NCBI GenBank assembly: GCA_030619985.1
Contig: JAUXAI010000025.1
Location: 1-16,750 of the forward strand
DNA length: 16,750 bases
Source of the DNA: a bacterium
GTDB lineage: Bacteria > UBP18 > UBA7526
Direction: 5' to 3'
The translations under genes were made by a program, and so were the position numbers. The notes beneath the pieces were generated by a model. The model was not told the origin of the DNA, ran no database searches, and saw nothing but the letters and a program-made list of their open reading frames with translations. Positions 1 to 13,975 of this stretch are shown here, piece after piece; the stretch's first letter is position 1; each line of letters begins with the position of its first letter.

Positions 1-836
1 CCGGGAACAGCAAAGACCTCCCTTCCCTGCTCCAGGGCAAGACGAGCGGTGATGAGTGCCCCACTCTTCTGGGCGGCCTCAACGATTATTACTCCTAAGG
101 AGAGGCCGCTTATTATCCTGTTCCTCTTAGGAAAGTTTCCCGCAAAGGGCCGGGTGCCAAAGGGAAATTCAGTGATCACCGCTCCGAATGAGGTGATTTT
201 TTCTTCAAGCGCCCTATTCTCTGGAGGATAGACAACGTCTATTCCACATCCTAAGACAGCGATGGTCCTCCCTCCTACGGCTAAGGCACCCTTGTGGGCT
301 TCAGAGTCAATCCCCCGAGCCATGCCGCTTACTATGGTTATCCCCTGGGCTGCTAATTGAGCAGAGAGCCTCTGGGCGGTTAACCGGCCGTAAGTGGTGG
401 CCCTTCTGGAGCCCACGATGGCAATAGCGTTCTTATCTCTTCTCTTTATCTCTCCTTTAACATATAATAAGGGTGGAGGATCATAGATCGTTTTCAGGCT
501 TTTGGGATAGGATTCATCATTTAAGGTAATAATGTCTATCTTATGCCTTTTAATCAGTTCTAATTCTTCCGTAACGTCAACCCCTTTCCCTATTTCGAAC
601 GCAGTGGAGAAACAAGGTTCTTGAGCGTTAGCGAAAGGCTTCCTTATAATGGCTCGGACAACATCCCTCTTTATCTCGGGAACTTTAGCTAAATCCTTTT
701 CTTCTGCTTTTAAGACCCCTTTTGGTGAACCGAACTTCTCAATTAACCTCTTATATAAATTATCCGTAATACCAGGTATTGCTTTCAGAATTAACCAATC
801 CTTTATTCTTGAGTTTTTTAACTTTTCATTTTGCAT
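1..836 (-). CDS. dprA: DNA processing protein DprA (3' end cut by window edge)
   Basis: DprA binds incoming single-stranded DNA in the cytoplasm and loads RecA during natural transformation. The 278 codons present show an N-terminal helix-hairpin-helix-like region (about residues 12-64) and then the Rossmann-like DprA domain: GSRRATTYG (about 142-150), SGMARGID (170-177), FPKRNRIISGLS (235-246) and SGALITA (258-264). The C-terminus lies off the left edge. The chosen start is the ATG at 836, which sits inside a 7-bp tandem repeat with no good Shine-Dalgarno, 10 bases after the stop of the upstream charged protein, so coupled translation is likely. Residues about 66-78 (KPFANAQEPCFST) are encoded by a dispersed repeat found three more times in the window; most DprA proteins have a much shorter join here. 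Family assignment is firm; the exact start is less certain. Confidence 0.95.
   Translation of the reverse strand, partial: MQNEKLKNSRIKDWLILKAIPGITDNLYKRLIEKFGSPKGVLKAEEKDLAKVPEIKRDVVRAIIRKPFANAQEPCFSTAFEIGKGVDVTEELELIKRHKIDIITLNDESYPKSLKTIYDPPPLLYVKGEIKRRDKNAIAIVGSRRATTYGRLTAQRLSAQLAAQGITIVSGMARGIDSEAHKGALAVGGRTIAVLGCGIDVVYPPENRALEEKITSFGAVITEFPFGTRPFAGNFPKRNRIISGLSLGVIIVEAAQKSGALITARLALEQGREVFAVP
607..646 (-). repeat. Dispersed element copy A, inside dprA
   Basis: The plus strand here shares a core (AACAAGGTTCTTGAGCG, then TTAGCGAAAGG) with copies at 11828-11865 and 13852-13901, and more loosely 12795-12827. In this copy the element is read in frame as part of DprA, between its N-terminal domain and the Rossmann domain. 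It contains the small hairpin CAAG-GTT-CTTG. Confidence 0.75.
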
Positions 837-843
837 TTCGCAT
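823..843 (-). repeat. 7-bp tandem repeat over the dprA start codon
   Basis: Three heptamers in a row on the plus strand: TTTTCAT, TTTGCAT, TTCGCAT. On the coding strand each unit carries an ATG, so three ATGs lie 7 bases apart and therefore in three different frames. Only the middle one (834-836) opens dprA; the others end after a few codons. Confidence 0.75.
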
Positions 844-846
844 TGT

Positions 847-1098
847 TTACTTGTGGGCTCCTCTTGATCCTCGGGTGGGCTTTCCCCTCACTCCACCCAG
901 AAACTTCTCCTTTCTCTGCCTCTTGATAAGATAGTCCTTCTTTATTCTCTCCTTCTGATAATCCTTGAACTTCTCTTTCTCCTTCTCCTTCTCTACCTCC
1001 TCTTCTTCCCGCCACTCTTCATGCTCTGCTTTCATCTCTTCATCGTGAACTTCCTTCATATACTCTTCTTCCGGACTCTTGGGTCTCCTCTTAATCAT
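847..1098 (-). CDS. Small highly charged protein, unknown function
   Basis: An 83-residue protein made largely of Glu, Lys and Arg, with runs such as EEEEVEKEKEKEKFK, probably forming a long helix or disordered chain; the last third is basic. No Cys pair, membrane segment or signal peptide is visible, and I do not recognise a family. It is supported as a gene by a strong Shine-Dalgarno (TAGGAGG, spaced 5 bases from the ATG at 1098) and by a promoter about 125 bases upstream (1223-1251). It ends 10 bases before dprA and probably shares its transcript. The alternative reading in another frame over 818-1015 lacks such a ribosome site. Confidence 0.6.
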   Translation of the reverse strand: MIKRRPKSPEEEYMKEVHDEEMKAEHEEWREEEEVEKEKEKEKFKDYQKERIKKDYLIKRQRKEKFLGGVRGKPTRGSRGAHK

Positions 1099-1175
1099 TT
1101 ATTCCTCCTATTACACGGATAAAACAATGGATTACCCAGATAATCATGGTGATACTTTTTTGCTGGTTAAGAGAT

Positions 1176-1208
1176 GCGGGTGACTCGGCAGATTTCTATA
1201 ATACCCGC
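1176..1208 (-). promoter_or_regulatory. Hairpin in the leader of the charged protein-dprA transcript
   Basis: GCGGGT (1176-1181 on plus) pairs with ACCCGC (1203-1208) around a 21-base loop. It lies at the start of the roughly 120-base leader expected from the promoter at 1223-1251. No T-tract follows, so it looks like leader structure rather than a terminator. No known riboswitch was recognised. Confidence 0.4.
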
Positions 1209-1222
1209 TTGCAATTGTAAAT

Positions 1223-1251
1223 ATAATACCATATATAAGCAGGAAAGTCAA
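1223..1251 (-). promoter_or_regulatory. Sigma70-type promoter before charged protein-dprA
   Basis: On the minus strand TTGACT (1246-1251), a 17-base spacer and TATTAT (1223-1228), with TGG immediately before the -10 box (extended -10 form). The -35 box overlaps the stop codon of the CxxC protein, so transcription of the 847-1098 gene and dprA can start independently. Confidence 0.65.
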
Positions 1252-1538
1252 AGTTCCTCAGTGTTTACCAGACCCAAGGGGCTTTTAAGATAGATATCCC
1301 GACACTTCTTGCAGAGATCAAAGGAGAAATTCTTCCAGATATCCTCCATTAGCTCCTCCTCATCCATATCCTTCATCTTCTCCAGAAGTCTCTTAATCTC
1401 TTTCTGAAAATCCCTCTTCAAATCCTCTTTGGTAATGACTAAGGTATCATAGGCGGCAATAACGTCGATATTCACCTTATACCTCAAGATATGAGGCTTT
1501 ATCTCCCTCCCGCACATATCACAGGTATACCTAATCAT
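1248..1538 (-). CDS. Small CxxC/CxxC putative zinc-binding protein
   Basis: A 96-residue protein that starts with a treble-clef-like half, CDMCGRE (residues 6-12), and ends with a second pair, CKKC (about 75-78). The two pairs are separated by about 65 residues holding an acidic and basic helix (KRLLEKMKDMDEEEL). Two CxxC pairs at the two ends suggest one structural zinc site bringing the termini together, although no metal binding is shown by sequence alone. Start: ATG at 1538 with Shine-Dalgarno GAGGAGG. A terminator-like hairpin lies just upstream (1558-1577), between it and the XRE gene, so it may depend on read-through or on an undetected promoter. I do not recognise a named family. Confidence 0.75.
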   Translation of the reverse strand: MIRYTCDMCGREIKPHILRYKVNIDVIAAYDTLVITKEDLKRDFQKEIKRLLEKMKDMDEEELMEDIWKNFSFDLCKKCRDIYLKSPLGLVNTEEL

Positions 1539-1557
1539 CTCTCACTCCTCCTCTAAT

Positions 1558-1577
1558 AAAAAATGCCCCTCAGGGCA
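1558..1577 (-). terminator. Rho-independent terminator after the XRE gene
   Basis: On the minus strand TGCCC-TGAG-GGGCA followed directly by six T. The stem is only 5 bp (6 with a G-T pair), so termination may be partial, which would let the CxxC gene downstream be transcribed at a lower level. Confidence 0.6.
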
Positions 1578-1635
1578 CCCCTCTCTTTTTGCGTCTTTCA
1601 GTTAAATTTTGCGCTTCGGCGGTTGCAATTCGTGT

Positions 1636-2007
1636 CTAAAGGAGCTCATCCGGCATCTCTTCTTTAACTACCTTCTTAACCTTCCTCACTCTCTCGCGCG
1701 CTGCCTCCACCTCGGGCATGGCACGAACTCTGCCTAACAGTCTTATTGCTCCCGGTTTCTCTAAATCCTTCTGATACTTTGCTGGAATCCTTCCCGCATA
1801 GACAACCAGACTATCCGAATCGATGTCCAACTTCTGGGCTAACCTGATAATTATTCTCTCATCTGAGGGGGGGTTGCGCTTTCCGCTCAATACCTTGGAA
1901 AGGAAACTGGAGTCAAGACCCGCCTCCCGGGCTGCTCTTCTCATACTCCAGCCCTTCTTCTTCAGGGCCTCCTTAACCGCTTTAATGAATGTAGCGTGAA
2001 GAACCAT
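1636..2007 (-). CDS. XRE-family helix-turn-helix regulator
   Basis: A 123-residue protein with a Cro/C1-type helix-turn-helix at about residues 8-63: the paired helices read MRRAAREAG and SSFLSKVLSGKRNPP, then ERIIIRLAQKLDID. A basic C-terminal region (AARERVRKVKKVVKEE) follows and ends the protein; no ligand domain or peptidase domain is visible. It probably binds DNA as a dimer. Start: ATG at 2007 with Shine-Dalgarno CAGGAG. A promoter-like pair lies at 2040-2069. It has its own promoter and terminator, so it may be a single-gene unit; its targets cannot be told from the sequence, though the nearby dprA leader or its own promoter are natural candidates. Confidence 0.85.
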   Translation of the reverse strand: MVLHATFIKAVKEALKKKGWSMRRAAREAGLDSSFLSKVLSGKRNPPSDERIIIRLAQKLDIDSDSLVVYAGRIPAKYQKDLEKPGAIRLLGRVRAMPEVEAARERVRKVKKVVKEEMPDELL

Positions 2008-2039
2008 CTATATCTCCTGAGCTTATTGCTTGATATTTT

Positions 2040-2069
2040 ACTTTATCATATTTCTTTAGGGGATGTCAA
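2040..2069 (-). promoter_or_regulatory. Promoter-like pair before the XRE gene
   Basis: Minus strand TTGACA (2064-2069), an 18-base spacer and TAAAGT (2040-2045). The -35 box is perfect; the -10 box is weaker and the spacing one base long. The site starts about 20 bases after the stop codon of the upstream NTF2-like gene. Confidence 0.5.
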
Positions 2070-2089
2070 CAAAAATTTTCTAAAGGAGG

Positions 2090-2527
2090 TTATCTGATTT
2101 TTAAGGGAGAGGCTTTTATGATTCTCCAGTGGCCATTCTCTTTTCTAAGGTATAAGGTGAATTTCTCTTGACCTTTGATGAGGCCGGTCTCATTGCTGGA
2201 GAGAGAAATAATGATTCCTAAGTTTACCTCCGCTTCTGAATCCTTCAGAACAACCTCTCTCTTTCTTAGCCAGATGTTAATCTCATCATATTTTTCGAAT
2301 GCCTTCTTAGCATCCTCTTCTATTGATTGATAGGTCTGGTCATATTCATCAGAATAGTCTTGTGAAATATATCTCATGCAAGTCTCTAAGTCTTCCCTTC
2401 CAATGGCCTCTTGTCCCCGATTAATAATAACCTTTAATCTTCTCTCTTCTGAGGTGAAGTAGTTAAAGGCCTGGTAAGCAGCCACGATCAAAATCAAGAT
2501 TAGTATAATTCTAAAAAATTCTCTCAT
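2090..2527 (-). CDS. Membrane-anchored NTF2-like protein, unknown role
   Basis: A 145-residue protein with one N-terminal membrane segment (about residues 5-24, IILILILIVAAYQAF) and a small alpha+beta domain outside. The domain pattern, an amphipathic helix with ISQDYSDEY, a further helix, then alternating strands ending in LYLRKENGHWRIIKASP, is that of the NTF2/SnoaL-like fold, where such proteins usually bind small ligands or partner proteins. No catalytic residues can be named. Start: ATG at 2527 with AGGA about 10 bases upstream. It follows lnt by 61 bases that contain a hairpin. The fold call is from pattern only and the function is unknown. Confidence 0.7.
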   Translation of the reverse strand: MREFFRIILILILIVAAYQAFNYFTSEERRLKVIINRGQEAIGREDLETCMRYISQDYSDEYDQTYQSIEEDAKKAFEKYDEINIWLRKREVVLKDSEAEVNLGIIISLSSNETGLIKGQEKFTLYLRKENGHWRIIKASPLKIR

Positions 2528-2559
2528 ACTTTTTTCTTCCTAACATATAAACTTACCCG

Positions 2560-2588
2560 CCCCGTGGGAGCGAAGCGACTTTACGGGG
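2560..2588 (-). repeat. GC-rich inverted repeat directly after lnt
   Basis: CCCCGT (2560-2565) and ACGGGG (2583-2588) pair around a 17-base loop, starting one base after the lnt stop codon. The loop contains the self-complementary GCGAAGCG-like core. No T-tract follows on the minus strand, so a terminator role is doubtful; it resembles the inverted repeat at 4739-4791, which also ends CGGGGT. Confidence 0.5.
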
Positions 2589-4001
2589 TCAACTTCTCCT
2601 TTTAAAGATAGCAAAGAGGAATAGGCCTATGGTAATCCCCTGGCAGAGATAGGGAAGAAGAAAACCATATCTTATGTAGAAGGAAATTTCCTTATTTAGT
2701 CTTACCTCACCAATTAAAATATCTGAGATACCAAAGTCCAGTCCCTTTATTATTCTGCCATAGGGATCGATAATCTGTGAGATTCCAGAACTTGCTGCCC
2801 GCACAATATATCTTTTGGCCTCCACTGCCCGTAGGGGGCTCATAGCAGAATGCTGGATATGCTGTATCCTCCCCCATCTCTTGGGATCATAGTTGGGAAC
2901 CACTAAGAGTTGAGCGCCATTTTTTATTAACTCTCTGGTGATATCCGTATAGTCTAGGTCATAACAGATTTCAATGCCCAGTTTACCCAAAGAAGTATCA
3001 AATGCCTTTGCTTCCTTTCCCGGGACAAGAAGGCCCTCCACAAACTGAACAGTATGAATCTTTGTATACTCACCAATCAAATCCCCTTGAGGAGAGAGGA
3101 GCAAGGCCTTGTTAGTAAATTTACCTGGAATTTGAGCGGAGTCTATAACCCCTACAATGAGATGGCTCTTTATTCCTTTTGCTAAATTAGTGAGCTCTTC
3201 AAACTTTTCTTCCCTACCTTCAAAGAAAGAGGGAAGGCTATACTCCGGCCAGACGACCAAATCTATTCTTTCTTTAGCTGTCTGGCGGGTTAAGAAAGAG
3301 AGACGAGTTAGGCTATGGGATTCGTCTTGGATAATGGCCACCTTGATCTTGGATCCTTGATCCTGGATCTTTGATCTAATTATAACCCACTTGCCGTAAG
3401 TAAAAAAGACGCCAATAACGATTGCTACCATTATGACTGGGAGAATCTTTTGAACTTTGGACTTTGGACTTTGGACTTCGCCTATCGAATGGGCGATAAC
3501 AGCATTCACGAGAACAATCAAGAAGGATATCCCGTATACTCCAAAGAGGGGGGCGGATTGCAATAAAGGTAAGTTCTGCCACTGGCTATAACCTAAGGAG
3601 AGCCAACTAAATCTCAAAGGATAGCACTCGCTTCTGAAGAACTCAACCGCTACCCAGATGATAGGAGCGAAAATGATGTGAGATATGGGATGTGGGATGT
3701 GGGATGAAACGAACCTATAGAAGAAAGAGAAGAGGGCGATGAATAGGGCGAGAAGGGAAAGGAGGCCGATACAGGTAATACTCGGTCCAAAGAGGCGGAT
3801 GAACCACCAGAGGCTTCCACAGTAGAGAACCAGGCCAGTGATTGCTCCCAAGTTTACTGCTTCCTTAATCTTGGCATCTTTAATGGTGATGAGTAGAGGA
3901 ACTAAGGCGATCCAGACAAGAATCGAGAAATTAAAGGGGGGGAAGGAAAATATTAAAAGTAACCCAGACAATATAGCCAGTGAGATTTTCTTTAAAGTCA
4001 T
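2589..4001 (-). CDS. lnt: Apolipoprotein N-acyltransferase
   Basis: Lnt transfers a fatty acid from phospholipid to the N-terminal cysteine of lipoproteins in the inner membrane. The 470 residues show about six N-terminal membrane segments (residues 5-200), a periplasmic carbon-nitrogen hydrolase domain (220-430) and a C-terminal membrane helix (447-466). The catalytic triad is visible: E253 in WPEYSLP, K314 in EYTKIH and C346 in IEICYD. The usual HLVPFGE after the lysine is here HTVQFVEG, a divergent form. Three 7-bp tandem repeats lie inside the gene and encode HIPHPISH (101-108), EVQSPKSKVQ (175-184) and RSKIQDQGSK (209-218), all in loops or linkers between membrane helices or before the catalytic domain. 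The start at 4001 lies only 18 bases after the T-tract of the previous gene's terminator, and its ribosome site is weak, so expression may rely on read-through. Confidence 0.93.
   Translation of the reverse strand: MTLKKISLAILSGLLLIFSFPPFNFSILVWIALVPLLITIKDAKIKEAVNLGAITGLVLYCGSLWWFIRLFGPSITCIGLLSLLALFIALFSFFYRFVSSHIPHPISHIIFAPIIWVAVEFFRSECYPLRFSWLSLGYSQWQNLPLLQSAPLFGVYGISFLIVLVNAVIAHSIGEVQSPKSKVQKILPVIMVAIVIGVFFTYGKWVIIRSKIQDQGSKIKVAIIQDESHSLTRLSFLTRQTAKERIDLVVWPEYSLPSFFEGREEKFEELTNLAKGIKSHLIVGVIDSAQIPGKFTNKALLLSPQGDLIGEYTKIHTVQFVEGLLVPGKEAKAFDTSLGKLGIEICYDLDYTDITRELIKNGAQLLVVPNYDPKRWGRIQHIQHSAMSPLRAVEAKRYIVRAASSGISQIIDPYGRIIKGLDFGISDILIGEVRLNKEISFYIRYGFLLPYLCQGITIGLFLFAIFKRRS
3345..3379 (-). 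repeat. 7-bp tandem repeat in lnt (linker before catalytic domain)
   Basis: Five plus-strand heptamers: GATCTTG, GATCCTT, GATCCTG, GATCTTT, GATCTAA. They encode part of the linker between the last N-terminal membrane helix and the hydrolase domain of Lnt. Confidence 0.8.
3454..3481 (-). repeat. 7-bp tandem repeat in lnt (loop before last N-terminal helix)
   Basis: Four plus-strand heptamers: ACTTTGG three times exactly, then ACTTCGC. On the coding strand this reads EVQSPKSKVQ, a hydrophilic stretch between two membrane helices. Confidence 0.85.
3678..3705 (-). repeat. 7-bp tandem repeat in lnt (third membrane-helix loop)
   Basis: Four plus-strand heptamers: GTGAGAT, ATGGGAT, GTGGGAT, GTGGGAT. 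They encode SHIPHPISHI between two membrane helices. Confidence 0.85.
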
Positions 4002-4018
4002 TTTAGGATCCAGTTCTC

Positions 4019-4055
4019 AAAAAGAAAGGCCTATCCCAAATTAAGGACAGGCCTT
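4019..4055 (-). terminator. Strong Rho-independent terminator after the DJ-1 lipoprotein gene
   Basis: An 11-bp stem on the minus strand (AAGGCCTGTCC with GGATAGGCCTT, one G-T pair) and a short AT-rich loop, followed by TCTTTTT. It lies 16 bases beyond the stop codon of the gene at 4072-4677 and immediately before lnt. Confidence 0.85.
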
Positions 4056-4071
4056 CCCAACATCTATTTTT

Positions 4072-4677
4072 CTATTTGCCAGAGAGGGCCTTTACTATCG
4101 CCTCCCCAAATGCCTTTGCTGATTTCGGGCCATCGGCAGTGATAATCTTCCCATCGACCTGAATACTGGAGGGGATATACTGTGCTCCCAGGTTGCGTAT
4201 CTTTATCCCCTCTGAAGGCCAGACGGTTGCTCTCTTCCCCTTCAATACTCCCGCGTTAGCCAGGGTAACGGGAGCGATGCATATGGCGCCCAGGACTTTG
4301 TTCTGCTTCACTGCTTCCTGAGCGATACCATGGGCTATTTTGCTATCCCAGTATTCGCTTGCTCCCGAGCCACCGATGAAGAGAATGGTGTCATAATCCT
4401 CTACCTTAACTTGACTGAGAAGGACGTCGGGTTGAGCGAAGAGGCCCAGCATCCCCCGACAACCCTTCAAGGTAGAAGAGGCAACGGTCACCCTCGCGCC
4501 CTGAGCCTCCAGGATTTCCCTGGGATGTTTATACTCCTCATCCCTGAAATTACTCGAGGCGATAATCATTAAGACCTTCTTTCCTTCAATTCTTTCCAAC
4601 TTCTCACCTCCTTGGGCACAGCCGGCGACTAATATCCCGGCCAATAGGATCAATAGCATCTTTCTCATCTTCCTCAT
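4072..4677 (-). CDS. DJ-1/PfpI-family lipoprotein
   Basis: A 201-residue protein with an N-terminal lipoprotein signal: basic MRKMRK, a hydrophobic stretch and the lipobox LVAGC with the lipidated cysteine at 20. The rest is a DJ-1/PfpI domain: E47 in FRDEEY, the IGGSGA turn (101-106) and the nucleophile-elbow cysteine C133 in GAICIAP. The family includes deglycases, chaperones, proteases and glutamine-amidotransferase-like proteins, so the reaction cannot be named. A lipid-anchored, exported DJ-1 protein is uncommon; most members are cytoplasmic. It has a promoter at 4711-4739 and a strong terminator after it, so it is probably its own transcription unit. The first three Met codons (1, 4, 7) are all possible starts; the longest is listed. 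Confidence 0.88.
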   Translation of the reverse strand: MRKMRKMLLILLAGILVAGCAQGGEKLERIEGKKVLMIIASSNFRDEEYKHPREILEAQGARVTVASSTLKGCRGMLGLFAQPDVLLSQVKVEDYDTILFIGGSGASEYWDSKIAHGIAQEAVKQNKVLGAICIAPVTLANAGVLKGKRATVWPSEGIKIRNLGAQYIPSSIQVDGKIITADGPKSAKAFGEAIVKALSGK

Positions 4678-4710
4678 AATCTTATCTCTTCTTTAGCAAT
4701 CTTTATTATT

Positions 4711-4739
4711 TTTATACCACATTTCTCAGAAAAAGTCAA
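4711..4739 (-). promoter_or_regulatory. Sigma70-type promoter before the DJ-1 lipoprotein gene
   Basis: Minus strand TTGACT (4734-4739), a 17-base spacer and TATAAA (4711-4716), with TGG just before the -10 box. The -35 box touches the inner end of the 13-bp inverted repeat at 4739-4791, so the upstream terminator-like element and this promoter are fused end to end. Confidence 0.7.
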
Positions 4740-4791
4740 CCCCGCACCTTTTTACTTTAAAATATTTCTTCGTAGCAGAAAGGTGCGGGGT
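4739..4791 (-). repeat. 13-bp perfect inverted repeat after the TM2-like gene
   Basis: ACCCCGCACCTTT (4739-4751) and its exact reverse complement (4779-4791) flank a 27-base AT-rich loop. It starts 5 bases after the stop codon of the TM2-like gene. On the minus strand it is followed by TGACTTTTT, so it could end transcription, and it also leads straight into the next promoter. Confidence 0.75.
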
Positions 4792-4796
4792 CAATC

Positions 4797-5150
4797 TTAC
4801 TCTATCCTCTGGGCGTTGATCTTCTGGGCACTCTCTTTGGCATCCCTGATGGAATGGATTCCCAGAAGAGCAATCCCCAGGATGCCCACCACTAATAGGA
4901 TAATCCCCGGGATAGAAACCCTTGCTCCCAGACAGCCAAAGTAGATGAGGATAGCGCCCAGGATGACCAGGATCATCCCTACTGCTGAGAAGGTCATCTG
5001 GATTAGCCCTTTATTTATCTGGCCATTATAAATCTGGCCCAGTCCGGTCCATAGAAAAGAATAGATCCCGGCCAATCCCGGGTCCTTGAGGGAGCGCCTT
5101 ATCCTCTCCTCCTCTAAGATTCTCTCCTTCTCTTCGCTGGTCAAAGCCAT
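4797..5150 (-). CDS. Small TM2-like membrane protein
   Basis: A 117-residue protein: a charged N-terminal helix (residues 5-21, EEKERILEEERIRRS), then two or three membrane segments (about 26-36, 52-74 and 80-99) and a polar tail. The segment LWTGLGQIYNGQINKG (33-48) is the hallmark of TM2-like small membrane proteins, which lack a known enzymatic function. The start is the ATG at 5150, with Shine-Dalgarno AAAGGAGGGG just upstream; a longer version beginning at an upstream TTG codon would place this ribosome site inside the gene and was rejected. It follows the kinase gene across an 8-bp-repeat region that also forms a promoter-like pair. Confidence 0.75.
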   Translation of the reverse strand: MALTSEEKERILEEERIRRSLKDPGLAGIYSFLWTGLGQIYNGQINKGLIQMTFSAVGMILVILGAILIYFGCLGARVSIPGIILLVVGILGIALLGIHSIRDAKESAQKINAQRIE

Positions 5151-5185
5151 CTCACCCCTCCTTTGCAATCATAGAATGCAAAATC

Positions 5186-5264
5186 AGTTAATAAGTTGAT
5201 TAGTTGACAAGTTAATAAGTTTCTTCTGTTTCCTTGTCAACTTGTATACTTGTATACTTGTTAA
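5186..5264. repeat. Inverted pair of 8-bp tandem arrays (4 + 4 units)
   Basis: Left arm 5186-5217 is four octamers (AGTTAATA, AGTTGATT, AGTTGACA, AGTTAATA). Right arm 5233-5264 is four octamers of the same family on the other strand (CTTGTCAA, CTTGTATA twice, CTTGTTAA). The arms are separated by 15 bases and could fold into an imperfect long hairpin. The stop codon of the kinase gene lies in the right arm. A longer version is at 8201-8353. Confidence 0.85.
5212..5240 (-). promoter_or_regulatory. Promoter-like pair built from the 8-bp repeat arms
   Basis: Minus strand TTGACA (5235-5240) from the right arm, a 17-base spacer and TATTAA (5212-5217) from the left arm. It lies about 60 bases before the start of the TM2-like gene. 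The -35 box is perfect and the -10 box fair, but both arise from the repeat unit, so chance is a real possibility. Confidence 0.4.
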
Positions 5265-5782: not shown

Positions 5783-5793
5783 CCCGCACCTCC

Positions 5794-6447
5794 TCAATCA
5801 ATTCTTTTCCAGGATACTCCTTTGGGAATATTAGAAAAGATGTTGGTATAACAGCGATTCCCGCCTTCATCAGTATAAACATAGAGGGCATTACTTTGAG
5901 CCTTATAGTATTGATAATACTTTATTACCTTCCAGACAAATCGTTGTGTTTCAGGATAGGGTGGCATCCTTCCATACTGCTTAACCTTATTGGGGCCAGC
6001 ATTGTAGGCTGCCAAAGCCAAAGACAAATTGTTGTTAAACTTATTGAGCATTTTGCGTAGATACTTTACTCCCCCTTCAATGTTATGATGGGGGTCCCAG
6101 ACATCTTTTACCTTCAGATCCCGAGCCGTCTGGGGCATGAGCTGCATCAGGCCCTGTGCTCCTTTCCGTGATAGGGCCTCTACCTCAAAGTCACTCTCCA
6201 CCTTAATAACCGCCTTAACCAGTAAGGGGTCAAGGTTATGTTTTTCAGCTAATCTTTTTATAAATAGGTCAAAGCCATCCTCCCTAGTCTCAATCGCCAA
6301 TCCCTCTTCTTGGTAGATAGCATAGATCTGTCCCTTCTCATCTGTATAGACATAGACTCCTGCCCAAGCATTACCAATGGTAATCAGTAACCAGTAACCA
6401 GTAACCAGTACTACTAAAAAAGATGTAACTAAACCTTTTCTTACCAT
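5794..6447 (-). CDS. Secreted lytic transglycosylase (SLT domain) flanked by DUF4124-like segments
   Basis: It cleaves peptidoglycan glycan strands with formation of anhydromuramic acid, in the periplasm. Of 217 residues, 1-29 form a signal peptide ending AWA. A DUF4124-like segment (YVYTDEKGQIY, 32-42) follows, then the SLT domain: catalytic E84 in KVESDF, GLMQLMP (99-105) and AAYNAGP (146-152). The C-terminus repeats the DUF4124-like pattern more completely (YVYTDEGGNRCYTN, 189-202). The hydrophobic core of the signal (LVTGYWLLIT) is encoded by a 7-bp tandem repeat. The ribosome site is weak. The stop codon lies 11 bases before the start of the kinase gene, so the two probably form one operon. 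It could serve cell-wall turnover or the assembly of an envelope-spanning machine. Confidence 0.92.
   Translation of the reverse strand: MVRKGLVTSFLVVLVTGYWLLITIGNAWAGVYVYTDEKGQIYAIYQEEGLAIETREDGFDLFIKRLAEKHNLDPLLVKAVIKVESDFEVEALSRKGAQGLMQLMPQTARDLKVKDVWDPHHNIEGGVKYLRKMLNKFNNNLSLALAAYNAGPNKVKQYGRMPPYPETQRFVWKVIKYYQYYKAQSNALYVYTDEGGNRCYTNIFSNIPKGVSWKRID
6382..6409 (-). repeat. 7-bp tandem repeat encoding a signal-peptide core
   Basis: Four plus-strand heptamers: AATCAGT, then AACCAGT three times. Coding strand units ACTGGTT give TGYWLL, a hydrophobic run. The same heptamer family recurs in an operon gap at 8363-8397. Confidence 0.85.
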
Positions 6448-6462
6448 GTTTTTATCCGTGCC

Positions 6463-6517: not shown

Positions 6518-6635
6518 AATCAATTTGATACTCTCCCTAATGCCAGCGAAGCGCATCCTGTAATTCGTTACTAAAATCTGCGTCAATCAGCGTCTTTTAA
6601 GCCCAAGCAGTCTGCAGTAAAAAGAAATCTGCGTC

Positions 6636-8177: not shown

Positions 8178-8200
8178 CTATCCTCCCTTCGGTCGGGGTT

Positions 8201-8353
8201 AGTTAACAAGTTGATTAGTTGACAAGTTAATAAGGTAATTAGTTAGATTAGGATATTAGGTGGATTTTAATCCAACCAGTCCAACTAATCCACTTATTTC
8301 ACTATCTTGTATCCTTGTTAACTTGTATCCTTGTTAACTTGTATACTTGTTAA
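8201..8353. repeat. Inverted pair of 8-bp tandem arrays (6 + 6 units)
   Basis: Left arm 8201-8248 is six octamers (AGTTAACA, AGTTGATT, AGTTGACA, AGTTAATA, AGGTAATT, AGTTAGAT). Right arm 8306-8353 is six octamers on the other strand, alternating CTTGTATC or CTTGTATA with CTTGTTAA. The 57 bases between hold a small hairpin (GGATT/AATCC). It occupies most of the yraN-comM gap and matches the smaller pair at 5186-5264. Confidence 0.85.
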
Positions 8354-8362
8354 CTTCTGTCT

Positions 8363-8397
8363 ACTGGTCACTGGTTACTGGTTACTGTTCACTGTTC
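8363..8397. repeat. 7-bp tandem repeat abutting the yraN stop codon
   Basis: Five plus-strand heptamers: ACTGGTC, ACTGGTT, ACTGGTT, ACTGTTC, ACTGTTC. The array ends on the base before the yraN stop codon (8398-8400). Same unit family as the signal-peptide repeat at 6382-6409, in the opposite strand sense. Confidence 0.85.
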
Positions 8398-8781: not shown

Positions 8782-9374
8782 ACCCTCACTCCAGAAAAAG
8801 TCCTTCTGTGAATCCGAGTAGGACCATGCCTCTTCAGGGCTCTTAGGTGTCTTTTAGTTCCATAGCCTTTGTGATGGTGAAAGCCATACTCTGGATGCCT
8901 CTTGTGGTATCTCACCATCAATCTATCCCTGGTAACTTTAGCGATGATTGAAGCAGCAGCGATGGAGGCGCTCTTCTCATCCCCTCTTACTATTGCCTTC
9001 TGAGGAATCTTTACTCCTGGAATCTCAAATCCGTCCACCAGTAATAGATCTGGCTCGATCTTGAGATGGGAGATGGCCCTTTTCATGGCAAGATGGGTTG
9101 CTCTTAAGATATTTATTCCATCTACCTTTCTCTCTCCCACCCGGCCCGATCCCATAGCCAGGACCTTCTCTTTAATTATGGAATAGAGTTCCTCCCTCTT
9201 CTTAGAACTCAGTCTCTTTGAGCTGTTCAGACCCCTTATCCTGCATTTTGGAGGGAGGATGAGGGCGCAGGCCACCACCGGTCCAGCCAATGGCCCCCTT
9301 CCTACTTCATCCACCCCAGCGATTAGTCGATAGCCCTTCTTCCTCATCCTTCTCTCATATCTTCTCATATCCAT
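8778..9374 (-). CDS. rnhB: Ribonuclease HII
   Basis: It cuts RNA in RNA-DNA hybrids and at single misincorporated ribonucleotides in the cytoplasm. The 198 residues carry the catalytic acids: D22 and E23 in AGVDEVGRGPLAGPV, D114 in LLVDGF and D150 in KVTRDRLM. The loop usually written DSKKL is here SSKRL, so the acidic residue that normally opens it is replaced by Ser. Start: ATG at 9374 with GAGG about 10 bases upstream. It overlaps yraN by ATGA. It follows lepB after a 135-base gap that holds a long hairpin. Confidence 0.95.
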   Translation of the reverse strand: MDMRRYERRMRKKGYRLIAGVDEVGRGPLAGPVVACALILPPKCRIRGLNSSKRLSSKKREELYSIIKEKVLAMGSGRVGERKVDGINILRATHLAMKRAISHLKIEPDLLLVDGFEIPGVKIPQKAIVRGDEKSASIAAASIIAKVTRDRLMVRYHKRHPEYGFHHHKGYGTKRHLRALKRHGPTRIHRRTFSGVRV

Positions 9375-9404
9375 TACAAATAGGCCTCACTTTGTTCGGC
9401 ATAG

Positions 9405-9473
9405 GCAGATGCATACAGATTGTTGCGGATGTAAACGGACCCTCTTTGCAGCAATCTATCCGTTTGCATCTGC
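9405..9473. repeat. Long stem-loop with alternative pairings between lepB and rnhB
   Basis: GCAGATGCA (9405-9413) pairs with TGCATCTGC (9465-9473), and AGATTGTTGC (9417-9426) pairs with GCAGCAATCT (9448-9457, one G-T). A second scheme pairs GATGTAAACGGA (9428-9439) with TCCGTTTGCATC (9459-9470, one mismatch), and the two schemes compete for 9465-9470. A further ATCCGTTTGAATCCGT follows. The rest of the 135-base gap is unremarkable. Confidence 0.6.
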
Positions 9474-9509
9474 TGTCATCCGTTTGAATCCGTAATTACT
9501 CTTTGAATT

Positions 9510-10145
9510 TTATCTAATTATCCCCATCCTATTAGGCGGCCAGTAGACGAAGAGCGCCTTTCCCTTGATATGCCTTCTCTCCAGAAAGCCCCAGACCCGG
9601 GAATCGCTCGAGTGCTCCCGATTATCCCCCATCATAAAGTAGGAATCAGAAGGAACCGTTAGCGGTCCATAATGATTAAAGGAGAGGTCCTCTACCGTAT
9701 GGAAGGCATAGGGCTCGTTCAAGGGTCTATCGTCAATATAGACCTTTCCTTCCCGAATCTCGAGCACCTCTCCCGGAAGTCCGATGACCCTTTTAATATA
9801 ATCCCTGTGAGGATCGGGGTTTATTCTCTTGAAGGTCAGAATACGAATGGCGGGAGCAATCAGCCTGATAGAGAGCTTGCGATAGGGATCCCCGGGATAG
9901 CGAAAGACGATGACATCCCCCCTCTTGGGATGGCGCCGGAAGACCTTCTTATCCGTAAAGGGAAGGGAGAGCCCATAACTGAACTTACAAGCAAATAGCC
10001 TGTCCCTTATCTTCAGGGTAGGCTCCATGCTGGAAGAAGGAATATGAAAACTCTGGATAACAAAAGTTACAATAATGAGATAGAGAAAAAAGGCAGTAAA
10101 GATTACCTCTATCCATTCTCTTAAGACAGATTTTTTTCTTCTCAT
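9510..10145 (-). CDS. lepB: Signal peptidase I
   Basis: It cleaves signal peptides of exported proteins at the outer face of the inner membrane. The 211 residues have one N-terminal membrane helix (about 12-31), the catalytic serine S39 in PSSSMEPTL, the general-base lysine K118 in YIKRVIGLPGE, and the box GDNREHSSDSR (173-183). Between FRYPGDP (81-87) and DYIKRV (115-120) there is an extra stretch of about 25 residues (LSIRLIAPAIRILTF and more) where most signal peptidases have only a few; it is hydrophobic and basic and could add membrane contact. It starts 3 bases after rplS with no clear Shine-Dalgarno, so translation is probably coupled to rplS. Confidence 0.95.
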   Translation of the reverse strand: MRRKKSVLREWIEVIFTAFFLYLIIVTFVIQSFHIPSSSMEPTLKIRDRLFACKFSYGLSLPFTDKKVFRRHPKRGDVIVFRYPGDPYRKLSIRLIAPAIRILTFKRINPDPHRDYIKRVIGLPGEVLEIREGKVYIDDRPLNEPYAFHTVEDLSFNHYGPLTVPSDSYFMMGDNREHSSDSRVWGFLERRHIKGKALFVYWPPNRMGIIR

Positions 10146-10148
10146 TTT

Positions 10149-10412
10149 TTATTTTTTACGCAGGTAATAGAGCCGGGCTCTTCTCCCCTTGCCCTCTTTT
10201 TTAACTTCGATCCTATCTATTCTCGGAGAATTGAGGGGGAAAGTTCTTTCCACCCCTACCCCATAGGAAACCTTCCTCACAGTGAAAGAGCCCTGGCGAC
10301 CTTTCTTCTTCCTGATCACTACTCCCTCAAAGGCAGAGATTCTTTCTTTATCTTTCTCCTTAATCTTAACATATACCCTGATCTTATCCCCAGGCCTGAA
10401 ATCTTTCTCCAT
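10149..10412 (-). CDS. rplS: Ribosomal protein bL19, short form
   Basis: bL19 sits at the interface of the two ribosomal subunits. The core is clear: [56 protein letters not shown] and [11 protein letters not shown] (read in three separate stretches over the 87 residues). Both ends are short compared with the usual 110-120 residues: the N-terminal helix before FRPGD and the tail after LYYLR are missing. The start is taken as the ATG at 10412, which has AGGAG 7 bases upstream; a GTG two codons earlier overlaps the trmD stop but leaves only one base to that ribosome site. It is tightly packed between trmD and lepB. Confidence 0.93.
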
Positions 10413-10414
10413 AA

Positions 10415-11230
10415 TCACTCTCCTTCCGGGTCAGAGACCCCTCTGGGTCGGAGACCTTTAATCTCTCTTAGCAATCTCTTATCCTCATTAGATAATTTGA
10501 TTTCTTTCAATAGGTCTGGCCTCCTCTTTAGGGTCCTTCTCAGGGCCTCCTTCCTCCTCCATTGGGCAACTTTTTTATGATCCCCGCTTAAAAGCACCTT
10601 GGGAACTCTCATTCCTTGGTACTCTTCTGGCCTGGTATAGTGGGGATAGTCCAGGAGACCAGAATAGAAGGAGTCCCAGATTATAGACTCTTCCTTCCCC
10701 AAGACCCCGGGAATGAGACGCACCAGAGCATCGATGACTACTAATGAGGCCAATTCTCCGCCAGTGAGGACATAGTCGCCGATGGATATTTCATCCGTTA
10801 CTACTCTTTTTATTCTCTCATCTATTCCCTCATAATGGCCGCAGATGAAGACCAAATGTTTCTCTCTTGCTAATCCCTTTGCCATCCCCTGATCAAACCT
10901 TTTCCCCTGTGGAGTCAATAATATTATACGCTGCAGGTCACAAGCCACAGGCTTCAGGCCTTTATCTTTACTTGGAGCTTGAAGCTTGGAGCTTGGAGCT
11001 TGTTTTATGAGCGATTCCACGGCCTCAAATATGGGCTCTGGCTTCAAAATCATTCCCGCTCCCCCACCATAGGGCGCATCGTCTGCTGTCCTATGCTTAT
11101 CGTGGGTAAAGGAGCGAATATCTAAAACGTTTATCTTCACTAACCCTTTCTCCTGGGCTCTCTTCAATATGCTCTCTTTCAGAGGCCCTTTTACCATGTT
11201 GGGGAAGAGGGTTAAGATGTCGATTCTCAC
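10415..11230 (-). CDS. trmD: tRNA (guanine-37-N1)-methyltransferase
   Basis: TrmD methylates G37 of tRNAs using S-adenosylmethionine, preventing frameshifts. The 271 residues contain [20 protein letters not shown] (41-60), [12 protein letters not shown] (129-140) and the trefoil-knot cofactor site YVLTGGELA (153-161). Residues about 77-100 ([12 protein letters not shown] and on to ACDLQ) are an insertion of about 20 residues before the strand RIILLTPQG, encoded by two 7-bp tandem arrays (10940-10960 and 10970-11004). The start is GTG at 11230, overlapping the rimM stop (GTGA), with GGAG upstream. The C-terminal residues GVSDPEGE are encoded by a short direct repeat (GGTCTCCGACC-like). Confidence 0.95.
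10940..11004 (-). repeat. Two adjoining 7-bp tandem arrays inside trmD
   Basis: Array one, 10940-10960: ACAAGCC, ACAGGCT, TCAGGCC. Array two, 10970-11004: ACTTGGA, GCTTGAA, GCTTGGA, GCTTGGA, GCTTGTT. They are separated by 9 bases and together account for the extra residues of TrmD. The reading frame is kept through both. Confidence 0.85.
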
Positions 11231-11754
11231 AGGCTCTCCAATCCCTCCATCATGTGAATAGTCATCTTCTTATTCTCTAAATCAATCCTTTTGATTACTT
11301 CCTTTGTGGCTGGAATCCATAGCTCCTTATCATTCCGCACAACGTAGATGTCGTTGCCTGGATTTTTTATGACATCAATGATCTTTCCCAATCTCTTCCC
11401 CTTATCACTCTCTACCTCCAGGCCGATAAGATCATCGATATAATACTCGTCCATCCTTAGCTTTATTCTCTCTTCTTTGGGAATGGCAATAAGGGAACCT
11501 TTTAGTTCCTTTGCCTGGCTGATACTATCATAACCTTTGATCTTTAAAATGATAAATCCCTTATGATTCCAGGCCCTCTCTACCTCTGTGGTAATGGGTT
11601 CTTTCCCCTCTTGAATCAAATAGACCCTCTTCAGATTTCGGAATCTATCTGGAAAATCGGTTAGGGAAATAACTCTCACCTCGCCCCTGTTCCCCTGAGT
11701 GGCAACCACCCTTCCAATATTTACCAAACTTTCTTTTTGCACCATTTCTATCAT
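11227..11754 (-). CDS. rimM: 16S rRNA processing protein RimM
   Basis: RimM helps maturation of the 30S subunit head and binds ribosomal protein uS19. The 175 residues have the N-terminal RimM domain ([18 protein letters not shown], 11-28; then the [20 protein letters not shown] region) and the C-terminal PRC-barrel-like domain ([13 protein letters not shown], 101-113; GNDIYVV, 133-139; LWIPA, 144-148). Start: ATG at 11754; ATG at 11745 is an alternative. Neither has a good Shine-Dalgarno, because the sequence just upstream (11759-11790) is an 8-bp tandem repeat that appears to have replaced the native leader. The stop overlaps the trmD start by 4 bases. Confidence 0.93.
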
Positions 11755-11758
11755 TTAA

Positions 11759-11812
11759 AGTTGATAAGTTAATACGTTAATAAGTTGATACGTATTCTCT
11801 TATTCTCTTATT
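11759..11812. repeat. 8-bp tandem array in the khpA-rimM gap
   Basis: Four octamers AGTTGATA, AGTTAATA, CGTTAATA, AGTTGATA (11759-11790), then CGTATT and two copies of CTCTTATT up to 11812. Same unit family as at 5186 and 8201, but here only one arm is present. It begins 4 bases before the rimM start. Confidence 0.8.
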
Positions 11813-11827
11813 TCTGAGTGGTAACGA

Positions 11828-11865
11828 AGAAACAAGATTCTTGAGCGCCAGCGAAAGGTTCTTAT
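11828..11865. repeat. Dispersed element copy B, khpA-rimM gap
   Basis: It shares AACAAGATTCTTGAGCG and CAGCGAAAGGTTCTTAT with copy A in dprA (only a few differences). With the 8-bp array it fills nearly all of the 131-base gap between khpA and rimM, in an operon that otherwise has overlapping or adjoining genes. Confidence 0.8.
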
Positions 11866-11885
11866 TTTCGTATTTTCTTATTTTT

Positions 11886-12119
11886 TTACTCTACGATCTT
11901 TAGAATGGCTCTCTTGTCCGCTTTGGCTGCTGCGGCATTTAGGAGGATGCGCAGGGCATTTGCTATCTTTCCCCCTTTTCCAATCACCTTTCCCAGTTCC
12001 TCAGGCGCGGTGCGCAGCTCGAAGACAGTTACTCCCCCTTCCTCTTCTATCTCTCTCACCTCTACTTTATCTTTCTCATCAACCAAAGACTTAGCAATAT
12101 ACTCGATCAATTCCTTCAT
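11886..12119 (-). CDS. khpA: KH-domain RNA-binding protein KhpA
   Basis: A 77-residue single KH domain of the KhpA/YlqC family. The RNA-binding GxxG loop is in [15 protein letters not shown] (about 43-57). In other bacteria KhpA pairs with KhpB and affects RNA stability and cell elongation. It starts at ATG 12119, overlapping the rpsP stop (ATGA), with AAGGAG 5 bases upstream inside rpsP. The rpsP-khpA-rimM order is standard. Confidence 0.93.
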
Positions 12120-12379
12120 CTTTTCTCCTTAAACTTCGTCAGGATCCCCTCTCTTTGAAAGAGACTCCTCACAGTATCCGAGGGTTTGGCTCCCTTCTTC
12201 AACCACTCCAATGCCTTCTCTTCATTGATATTGACTATTGCCGGCTCTTTCCTGGGGTCATAGTATCCCAGGGCCTCGATGTACTTTCCAACCACCGCCT
12301 TCCGGGAATCGGTGACCACCAATCTATAGAAGGGCTTCTTCTTCGTCCCCATCCTCTTCAATCTAATTACCGTTGCCAT
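12116..12379 (-). CDS. rpsP: Ribosomal protein bS16
   Basis: bS16 is a 30S subunit assembly protein. The 87 residues begin [19 protein letters not shown], followed by [22 protein letters not shown] (in two stretches) and the C-terminal [16 protein letters not shown]; the length is normal. The start is ATG at 12379 within a TAATG overlap with the ylxM stop, with a strong Shine-Dalgarno AGGAGGT 6 bases upstream. Confidence 0.97.
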
Positions 12380-12612
12380 TATCTTACCTCCTGGGTTAAG
12401 TGCAACTTCTTCTCATACTTCTCTAAAGACTCTCTGGCCTTCTTTAGGGTATCATAGACCGCCTGACGAGAGATCCTAAACCTCTGGGCGATCTCACCCA
12501 AAGAAAGGTCTTCACAGAAGTATAATTTGACAAACTTCTTCTGTCTCTCAGTCAATAGCGATCCATAGAAATCGAATAAAAGATTTGTCCTCACCCTTTG
12601 AGAAAGTTCCAT
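12379..12612 (-). CDS. ylxM: YlxM family HTH protein (UPF0122)
   Basis: A 77-residue helix-turn-helix protein resembling sigma-70 region 4: [46 protein letters not shown] (read in two parts). Family members normally lie just before ffh and are thought to affect the signal recognition particle pathway; here ffh is absent and rpsP follows directly by a TAATG overlap. It is shorter than typical YlxM (about 105-110 residues), lacking the C-terminal part. Start: ATG at 12612 with AGGGG 6 bases upstream. A near-consensus promoter at 12644-12672 makes it the first gene of the ribosomal operon. Confidence 0.9.
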
Positions 12613-12643
12613 TTCTTTCCCCTGTCAAGTTAATTCACTTTAC

Positions 12644-12672
12644 AGTATAATCTACTTCTCTCTAAAAGTCAA
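12644..12672 (-). promoter_or_regulatory. Strong sigma70-type promoter of the ylxM-rpsP operon
   Basis: Minus strand TTGACT (12667-12672), a 17-base spacer and TATACT (12644-12649). The expected start of transcription is about 25 bases before the ylxM ATG. It is the best promoter match in the window. Confidence 0.8.
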
Positions 12673-12742
12673 GGAAAATTACGTTTGATTCCTTTTATTT
12701 CCTTATAGCAAATTTCAACATCATATTTCCAAATTCTTATGT

Positions 12743-12761
12743 TTTTTGCTTATAGCAAAAA
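12743..12761. terminator. AT-rich hairpin after the smaller nuclease gene
   Basis: TTTTTGCT and AGCAAAAA (8 bp) flank a 3-base loop. It directly follows the hairpin at 12766-12781 and shares its T-tract. Because it begins and ends with homopolymer runs it could stop transcription in either direction. The rest of the 314-base gap (12613-12926) holds the operon promoter, the repeat at 12795-12827 and no gene. Confidence 0.5.
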
Positions 12762-12781
12762 CCCATCCCGATATATCGGGA
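12757..12781 (-). terminator. Palindromic terminator of the smaller nuclease gene
   Basis: TCCCGATATATCGGGA (12766-12781) is a perfect 16-base palindrome; on the minus strand it is followed by TGGG and TTTTT. A 6-bp GC-rich stem with a 4-base loop. Confidence 0.65.
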
Positions 12782-12794
12782 CGAGCATTTAAAA

Positions 12795-12827
12795 ATAAGA
12801 ACCTGCTCTACGGGCAGAACCTTGTTA
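12795..12827. repeat. Dispersed element copy D (divergent), 3' of the smaller nuclease gene
   Basis: Minus strand AACAAGGTTCT, a different 12-base middle (GCCCGTAGAGCA), then GGTTCTTAT. The two ends match copies A-C; the middle does not. It lies between the nuclease stop and its terminator, the same place as copy C after the larger nuclease. Confidence 0.6.
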
Positions 12828-12926
12828 CTCTGTGGGCAAAACTTTGGTTAGGACGTAATAAAAAGAAAAATGAAAATAAGTCGGTTCAGAAAGTTTAGGG
12901 AGTAAAGAAAGAGCCTTTTATCTTCT

Positions 12927-13712
12927 TTATCTTGAATGTCTCCATTCCCAAGGTGGAGTTGGATTGGGTTCTTGCCATAACCCAATCTTTTTCGCTCTCG
13001 CTTCCTCTTCAAGTATGGCCAATTCTTTCTCCTGGGAATACTCCTTGTAGTGCCAGGCTAAACCGGCTTTAAGAAGTTCTTTGTCCAGGCATTCTCCATC
13101 AACATAAACCCAGGCAATAGTCCTACCGTATTTGTCAGTAGTGACCGGGCTGATATTAACTGTTTCTCCCAAGATCATATCTTTAGTAAATTGCGTTGCC
13201 CTTTTTCCGAAAGGCTGTCGCCTCTCAGGACAGTCTACTCCATAGAGCCTTACACTCTCCACTGAGTCGTCATCTAATCGCACCTTAATGGTATCCCCAT
13301 CAGATACCCTGATGCAGGTGGCTTCTATCAGATTGGAAGGCAGATCGGGCTTTTTGGTTTTAGTCTTTGTCGAAGAGACAGGTTTCTTTCTAGGTTCTCC
13401 TTTAATAATAAAGGTATCCGGGATGCCATCCCCATCGGTATCTATCTTCTCCATCACTAAAGAGGGGGTCTTGGACGGTGGAGCAGTCTCCTCTACCTCG
13501 ACCTCTACTGGCTTTTCTTCTACTACCGAAGTTTTTATGGGAATCGGCTCTTGGGAAGGGGCAGGGACCTGAGCCACTGGTGGAGCACTTTCCGAAGTTG
13601 TATCAGGCTGTATTCCCCTGTTTACCTGTCTATGGAGTATAAACATTCCCAAAATGACAGTTGCCGTAACTACCACGGCTAATATTAAGAATCGATCACG
13701 TAAGAATTGCAT
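12927..13712 (-). CDS. Membrane-anchored thermonuclease (SNase) with TSP3-like calcium motif
   Basis: A 261-residue protein predicted to cut DNA or RNA outside the cytoplasm. One N-terminal membrane helix (about 8-27) is followed by a Pro/Glu-rich linker (35-85), the calcium-type loop DTDGDGIPDTF (91-101), a basic linker, and the staphylococcal-nuclease domain (124-250). Catalytic residues match the family: R155 in VRLYGVD, E163 in CPERRQPFG and R197 in DKYGRTIAWVY, with D138 and D140 in SDGDT for calcium. The start is the ATG at 13712 with GGAG 8 bases upstream; a TTG two codons earlier was rejected. It is a paralogue of the next gene upstream (14008-15456), sharing the DTDGDG motif, linker and nuclease domain but lacking the OB folds. 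It has its own promoter and terminator. Confidence 0.92.
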   Translation of the reverse strand: MQFLRDRFLILAVVVTATVILGMFILHRQVNRGIQPDTTSESAPPVAQVPAPSQEPIPIKTSVVEEKPVEVEVEETAPPSKTPSLVMEKIDTDGDGIPDTFIIKGEPRKKPVSSTKTKTKKPDLPSNLIEATCIRVSDGDTIKVRLDDDSVESVRLYGVDCPERRQPFGKRATQFTKDMILGETVNISPVTTDKYGRTIAWVYVDGECLDKELLKAGLAWHYKEYSQEKELAILEEEARAKKIGLWQEPNPTPPWEWRHSR

Positions 13713-13774
13713 CGTCAAACTCCAAAAAAGTTTTGTCCAATATTATGTTTCTTACCCCTTAATTTCTACCTAAA

Positions 13775-13803
13775 ATCTTAGCATATTTTGAAAAAAATTG
13801 CAA
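13775..13803 (-). promoter_or_regulatory. Promoter of the smaller nuclease gene
   Basis: Minus strand TTGCAA (13798-13803), a 17-base spacer and TAAGAT (13775-13780), preceded by TGC (extended -10). The T-tract of the upstream terminator forms the -35/spacer region. The sequence from -35 to +10 resembles the promoter at 15483-15511. Confidence 0.7.
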
Positions 13804-13838
13804 AAACAACAGCAGGAGTCTTCTAAGACTCCCGCTGT
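13802..13838 (-). terminator. Strong terminator of the larger nuclease gene
   Basis: A 13-bp stem (ACAGCGGGAGTCT with AGACTCCTGCTGT, one G-T pair) and a 4-base loop, followed on the minus strand by TGTTTTT. It lies about 170 bases after the larger nuclease stop codon, beyond the repeats of that 3' region. Confidence 0.88.
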
Positions 13839-13851
13839 TTTCGTTATGCGT

Positions 13852-13901
13852 TATAAGAACCTCTCGCTAACGCTCGAGAACCTTGTTTTCTCGCTAACGC
13901 T
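13852..13901. repeat. Dispersed element copy C, 3' of the larger nuclease gene
   Basis: On the minus strand it reads AGCGTTAGCGAGA, AACAAGGTTCTCGAGCG, TTAGCGAGAGGTTCTTAT. The AGCGTTAGCGAGA part occurs twice. It matches copy A closely and is the longest copy in the window. Confidence 0.8.
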
Positions 13902-13940
13902 AAAAATACGGTTACCGGGCTTGCTACGTTACTCAATCCT

Positions 13941-13975
13941 TGATCCAGCATCCAGGATCAAGGATCCAACATCTA
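13941..13975. repeat. 7-bp tandem repeat 3' of the larger nuclease gene
   Basis: Five plus-strand heptamers: TGATCCA, GCATCCA, GGATCAA, GGATCCA, ACATCTA. Within it CCTTGATCC (13938-13946) and GGATCAAGG (13955-13963) form a 9-bp hairpin. The unit is close to the GATCCTT family in lnt. Confidence 0.8.

Follow-up and report, generated by a model that had tools for sequence, protein, structure and literature searches.

Bacterial genomes harbor several kinds of short tandem arrays built on a seven-base step, and the arrays described here belong to this scattered and already known kind, with new features. They were found in a 16,750-nt stretch (the window) of contig JAUXAI010000025.1 (assembly GCA_030619985.1), from a bacterium of the UBP18 lineage. 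Heptameric simple sequence repeats are in excess in many bacteria, and polymerase slippage was proposed as their origin (Mrazek et al. 2007, as relayed in PMC4692102 and PMC4679880). Geobacter metallireducens carries multicopy arrays (4 x 7 bp and 4 x 8 bp), within and between genes and as opposite-strand pairs at variable distance (PMC2700814). The GGGAATC arrays of Xanthomonas and the GGGGA(C/T)T arrays of Nostoc display a four-unit bias ascribed to G-quadruplexes (PMC4692102). The P6b stem-loop of the Nostoc trnL intron has a heptamer-built stem in which one class was repeatedly swapped for another (PMC4476775), and Beggiatoaceae possess dispersed TAACTGA arrays of two to six copies (PMC4679880). 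The heptamer excess has been noted for years while its mechanism was never tested, and we found no open-access paper uniting these scattered cases or reporting slot-wise turnover within genes.

The source genome (G000) comprises 1.25 Mb in 91 contigs and is 83.65% complete, the window being its contig C65. It was analyzed within the full set of six genomes of the phylum, all from a single family and 53 to 93% complete. Among these, G001 and G002 are genus-mates, G002 being a sister species with ~90% identity to G000 across long aligned stretches, and G004 belongs to another genus. Arrays of the window were called with Tandem Repeats Finder (TRF), open reading frames (ORFs) were listed, and gene identities were assigned by Pfam.

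The 7-bp arrays are real, genome-wide, and far above chance, and two steps are present, 7 and 8. Indeed, perfect runs (10 matched bases or longer), counted over 1.24 Mb of unmasked sequence, amount to 130 at period 7 where 3.4 are expected (36 versus 0.0 for at least 14 bases) and to 77 at period 8 where 2.6 are expected, whereas periods 6 (12 runs for 4.2 expected) and 9 (15 for 1.4) stay near background. Harmonics appear at 14, 16, 21, and 24, and periods 1 and 2 give zero runs for 7.2 and 5.0 expected. In the window itself, 5 period-7 runs stand against 0.08 and 2 period-8 runs against 0.02 in dinucleotide shuffles. The 8-bp arrays are not a chance side product of the 7-bp ones, as they have their own words and their own harmonics at 16 and 24. 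The initial annotation had reported 7-bp arrays at 823, 3345, 3454, 3678, 6382, 8363, 10970, and 13941, and TRF confirms period 7 at each. Its assertion that all arrays share a strict 7-bp period does not hold, since arrays of periods 8 and 16 lie in the same window, and the genome-wide peak at 7 that it anticipated stands out against 6 and 9 but not against 8, which is also a peak. Eight base pairs is therefore a second allowed step, for which explanations based on a polymerase footprint must account. Compared with the heptamers of Mrazek et al., the excess of 7-bp runs over shuffled sequence is alike; the 8-bp class, the four-unit size, the shared lexicon, the fixed slots with changing words, and the many in-frame arrays set the present case apart. 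The short tandemly repeated and long simple sequence repeats (STRR/LSSR) are defined by period 7 only, whereas both periods are found here. The arrays of the window and the related periodic features are as follows.

823..844, dprA, at the start codon side of its ORF (minus strand): period-7 array TTTGCAT, 3.1 units (TRF, Pfam).
3341..3377, in frame inside lnt: period-7/14 array GATCCTT/GATCTTG, ~5 units (TRF 3341-3376, Pfam).
3449..3478, in frame inside lnt: period-7 array GGACTTT (TRF).
3675..3706, in frame inside lnt: period-7 array GATGTGG, with no array there in G003 (TRF, alignment).
5186..5261 (TRF 5186-5221 and 5240-5261), kinase ORF (3' end) and spacer: inverted pair of period-8 arrays (AGTTGATA..., ACTTGTAT...), predicted hairpin.
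6380..6410, SLT-domain lytic transglycosylase gene, in frame within the part encoding the N-terminal hydrophobic stretch: period-7 array GTAACCA (TRF, Pfam).
8199..8251, spacer between a Mg-chelatase-like (comM/yifB type) ORF and a yraN-like ORF: period-8 array, the left member of an inverted pair (TRF).
8306..8356, inverted partner of 8199-8251: right period-8/16 array (CTTGTATCCTTGTTAA)n, a family-restricted composite (TRF).
8363..8397, abutting the 8-bp array: period-7 array ACTGGTT/ACTGTTC (TRF 8363-8394).
10940..10962, trmD insert: imperfect heptamer stretch CACAAGC CACAGGC TTCAGGC (sequence, alignment).
10971..11002, variable loop of trmD, in frame: period-7 array CTTGGAG (TRF, Pfam).
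11758..11888 (TRF 11758-11812 and 11859-11888), spacer between rimM and a KH gene: period-8/16 arrays AAGTTAAT, TATTCTCT, and TTCTTATT.
13943..13973, spacer: period-7/14 array ATCCAGC/GATCAAG, with an ACTCCGA-type array at this place in G002 (TRF).

Arrays follow these two steps and also share a preferred size. A tolerant detector, run on the genome and on a shuffled genome to obtain array counts and unit numbers, returned 160 period-7 and 134 period-8 arrays in the former and 0 in the latter. The unit number of period-7 arrays peaks sharply at 4.5 (75 of 160 in G000, 50 of 96 in G002), that of period-8 arrays more broadly at 4 to 4.5, and intergenic period-7 lengths cluster near 17, 24, and 31 nt, which corresponds to n x 7 + 3. 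The four-unit peak cannot be an artefact of the detection threshold, as shorter arrays would pass and shuffled sequence yields none. As in Xanthomonas and Nostoc, we observe period 7, a four-unit preference, inverted pairs, and unit variation between related species. However, the arrays of these bacteria are all G-rich, whereas 140 of the 160 period-7 arrays here lack GGG or CCC in the unit, and 62 of these 140 measure 30-33 nt, the same modal length. The four-unit preference therefore needs no G-runs, and the published G-quadruplex cause cannot be general.

Long reading frames (150 aa or more) hold 42% of the period-7 and 20% of the period-8 arrays while ORFs cover ~91% of the genome, so spacers are preferred and genes are not spared; in the window, arrays lie in dprA, lnt (three arrays), the lytic transglycosylase gene, and trmD. 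Furthermore, neighboring arrays of the same period occur as inverted pairs more often than expected (16 versus 4.0 for period 8, 10 versus 3.0 for period 7), and some facing arrays form the arms of predicted hairpins, including 5186-5261 and 8199-8356 in the window. Arrays of four or five 7- or 8-bp units and opposite-strand pairs are also what was described in Geobacter, where one octamer family, TWGTTGAY, is similar to the AAGTTGAT/TAGTTGAC octamers found here, the consensus words of that paper being compared by eye only. The Geobacter arrays form few families, are read as regulator sites, and come with no description of cross-species turnover in the text consulted (PMC2700814). We dropped the idea of an octamer class restricted to the present clade: foreign loci (see below) lack a peak at 8, yet octamers are published for Geobacter. 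A general rule of a constant 4-nt core and a variable 3-nt linker, drawn from the CAGT and CAAG families, was also rejected, contiguous variable columns being barely above chance (18 of 57 versus 11.4 for k=3).

The comparison with the sister species sheds light on how the arrays evolve. Defining a slot as a period array with both flanks mapping to G002, 44 of 62 period-7 slots hold a period-7 array in G002, against 3.9% for a random window of equal size, and the word differs at two or more positions in 25 of these 44, 16 of the 25 lying in genes. Among period-8 slots, 22 of 52 are retained (chance 2%), 10 of them with another word. Three cases, whose gene names come from reading the translations without a profile search, illustrate this turnover: an asnB-like gene carries GTCCAAA in G000 versus ATGCAAA in G002 and no array in G001 and G003; an amidohydrolase-like ORF has two slots, with AATGCAA and CGTCACT in G000 and ACTCCGA at both in G002; and a dapF-like ORF carries AAATCAA in G000 except for a last unit AATGCAA, the word present throughout in G002. 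The mean mismatch between units within an array is 0.84 in G000 and 0.77 in G002 versus 2.25 between orthologous arrays, where flank divergence predicts 0.66. Units thus change in concert inside a slot, that is, by concerted evolution in place. The fixed step with varying sequence that the initial annotation had put forward, and a local rewriting of units in concert, are backed by the G002 slots and by the in-place cases.

Three cases in the window, in the transglycosylase gene, in lnt (3449..3478), and in dprA, document this directly. At the same place in the transglycosylase gene, the array of the window, like those of G001 and G002, reads AGTAACC, against AGTGAAC in G003. In lnt, the 3449..3478 array has GGACTTC in successive units of G003, and the place aligned with 3341..3377 is a GAGGTGT array in a lnt homolog of G002 and holds a GC-rich insert in G003. 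The dprA array is weak when taken alone (3.1 units, 86% match), but its counterpart at this position in G002 has three additional units (21 nt), a difference that preserves the frame. The 8199..8251 array is absent at the corresponding place in G002, an ACCGTNN array occupies the 8363..8397 spacer in that genome, and the spacer between rimM and the KH gene contains other periodic material in G001, G002, and G004. The trmD loop carries CTTGGAG in the window, TTTGATT in G002, TTTGGAC in G001, CTTGGAG with a nested insert in G004, and no array in G003. By comparison, the swap described in the Nostoc trnL intron concerns a single RNA slot and two classes, whereas the genomic slots here number in the hundreds and the words in the dozens. 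A small phylum offers hundreds of alignable slots, some of them in essential genes whose frame holds the register, so that slippage, replacement, and selection become separable. As a side observation, the trmD array region (window 10905-11000) is 96-100% identical to contig C136 of G004, against ~85% around it, a possible sign of recent recombination.

Words are also shared well beyond individual slots. For period 7, 67 of 96 G002 arrays use a word present in G000, against 11.6 +- 3.1 with shuffled letters, and for period 8, 41 of 67 do so against 2.7 expected, part of this sharing being plain inheritance of unchanged arrays at common slots. Words found at three or more loci of their own genome account for 60% of the period-7 arrays in G000 and 48% in G002. 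Moreover, the composite AGTAACCAGCGAACAGTAACCAG (up to one mismatch) occurs in all six genomes at 2 to 21 copies each, 21 of them in G000, and AAGTTAACAAGGATACAAGTTAACAAG is limited to the family (4 of 193 genomes). In this respect the Beggiatoaceae differ, with one word that is mostly intergenic and rare related words. The recurring composite and the shared words indicate that copying between loci happens besides local stepping, so the view of the initial annotation that a stepping mechanism acts rather than a spreading element is not supported. Its impression that the bacterium is no cyanobacterium meets no contradiction.

The reading we favor, to which we assign a probability of roughly 55%, is that of a large class of dispersed, fast-evolving micro-arrays, preferably of about four units plus 3 nt, in inherited slots, whose units are homogenized by slippage or transient misalignment and into which new words are copied. 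The inherited slots lie in spacers and tolerant protein loops. The data establish the two periods, the modal size, the slots, the common lexicon, the change in concert, and the pairing of some arrays in hairpins; the slippage step, the copying route, and the lack of function are inferred. The polymerase would slip by one unit, copy the neighboring unit, and realign; alternatively, units would be gained or lost, and a change in one unit would spread across the array. Within genes, only frame-keeping length changes would survive, and new words would arrive by copying of arrays or hairpins from other loci or from relatives. The arrays themselves would be mostly neutral or selfish rather than regulatory.

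A MutS_V domain (MutS1 or MutS2) was detected in none of the six phylum genomes, the controls being positive in 11 of 14. This absence fits with the dearth of long mono- and dinucleotide runs and may add to the behavior of the arrays. MutS acts mainly on loops shorter than 7 nt, and loops of 7-8 nt are poor substrates. The absence of MutS therefore cannot by itself select 7 and 8 and leaves the period unexplained, which is a point against our reading. Others must be weighed with it: slippage alone would give a falling length distribution rather than a four-unit peak; in several slots, 3-5 of 7 positions differ despite a genome divergence of ~10%, which, judging from the sequences, looks more like word replacement than stepwise drift; some swaps could reflect recombination with relatives, a candidate being the slot in trmD shared by G004 and the window; and the differences in unit number are known between assembled genomes, not within a population.

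The main rival, possible though short of probable, is the repeated insertion of hairpin elements: small non-autonomous mobile elements, with arrays as their inverted ends or arms and moved by some transposase, would insert again and again at few tolerated sites, arrays and loops being favored targets, and orthologous slots would differ because the elements inserted are not the same. The identical composites at many loci and the inverted pairs agree with it, as do inserts nested in arrays and the many clean insertions or deletions of hairpin segments between the sister species, some with terminal inverted repeats and TGAA/TTCA flanks. Across the 64 clean insertions or deletions listed between G000 and G002, the inserted sequence has a stronger tendency to fold than random segments do (median z of -2.97 versus 0.03). 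However, part of these segments are other element families, so array transposition itself is not demonstrated by them; the inverted ends with TGAA/TTCA flanks, which bear on a relation to miniature inverted-repeat transposable elements (MITEs), are documented for some of the other inserted segments rather than for the 7- and 8-bp arrays. The unit changes at fixed positions in lnt and in the transglycosylase gene are not insertions. The Y1 HUH transposase (PF01797, TnpA_REP) was found in 0 of 6 phylum genomes (controls 5 of 14), and HUH mobilization by a REP-associated tyrosine transposase (RAYT) was rejected on this ground; reverse transcriptase (RVT_1, PF00078) was not found in G000, at 83.65% completeness (controls 3 of 14), and a retroelement or telomerase-like origin was likewise rejected; other transposase families were not searched. 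Dispersed hairpins and rapid gain and loss recall repetitive extragenic palindromes (REPs), bacterial interspersed mosaic elements (BIMEs), and MITEs, but the arms here are tandem arrays and the RAYT/Y1 transposase is the one missing from all six genomes.

Two observations touch on this question. Some heptamer arrays are interrupted midway by small GC-rich hairpin inserts, as though the arrays served as landing places for other elements (trmD of G001 and G004, G000 C80:4931 and C70:14269, G002 C6:34166). A further set of dispersed elements, bounded by GC-rich inverted ends (CCCCGCACCTT...AAGGTGCGGGG and relatives) and flanked by short TGAA/TTCA repeats, is present in one sister genome and absent from the other:

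G000 C14:9506-9586: GC-rich inverted-end element.
G000 C43:11745-11865: GC-rich inverted-end element.
G002 C3:53723-53828: GC-rich inverted-end element.

Departing further from micro-arrays homogenized in place, and unlikely in our opinion, an undescribed array-writing process, spread over many phyla, might impose a set size (four steps of 7 or 8 bp plus 3 nt) and overwrite the word of a slot from a genome-wide lexicon. If this were true, the earlier readings as G-quadruplexes and regulator sites would be side effects.

The hypothesis of Mrazek and co-workers (cited in PMC4692102 and PMC4679880), taken as replication slippage alone with a step of 7 set by the polymerase footprint and without copying between loci, appears very doubtful. 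Period 7 does dominate here and in foreign loci. Indeed, at least 119 stretches from named genomes of many phyla contain AGTAACCAGTAACCAGTAACCAG, and once the query array is masked, these stretches display, among the matches listed, 165.6 period-7 runs per Mb, compared with 19.5 for period 8 and 21.9 for period 9; having been picked for carrying an array, they do not constitute a survey of distribution. However, the second peak at 8 in the present genome, the modal four-unit size, and the identical composites at many loci speak against slippage alone, which the shared lexicon already weakens. Least probable of all, sites bound by a regulator or a nucleoid protein, or RNA hairpins with a regulatory role, maintained by selection as suggested for Geobacter and Beggiatoaceae, would suit the fixed unit number, the inverted pairs, and the naming of similar arrays in G. 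metallireducens as global regulator binding sites (PMC2700814), but fit poorly with the share of arrays within long ORFs, including those of housekeeping enzymes, and with sequence changes at unchanged slots.

The other arrays in the foreign stretches have, again among the matches listed, a length peak at 30-35 nt. Viral carriage of the composites was rejected, none being found in IMG/VR, although 13 stretches from viral contigs in that database carry simple AGTAACC arrays (L288-L300). Finally, quasi-periodic words near 10-11 bp (CGCAGATGACCGCAGAT, AATCTGTGCTAATCTGTG, and CGGATG types) are found at window positions 6575-6630 and 9380-9500 and at many loci of the genome, in up to 25 copies.

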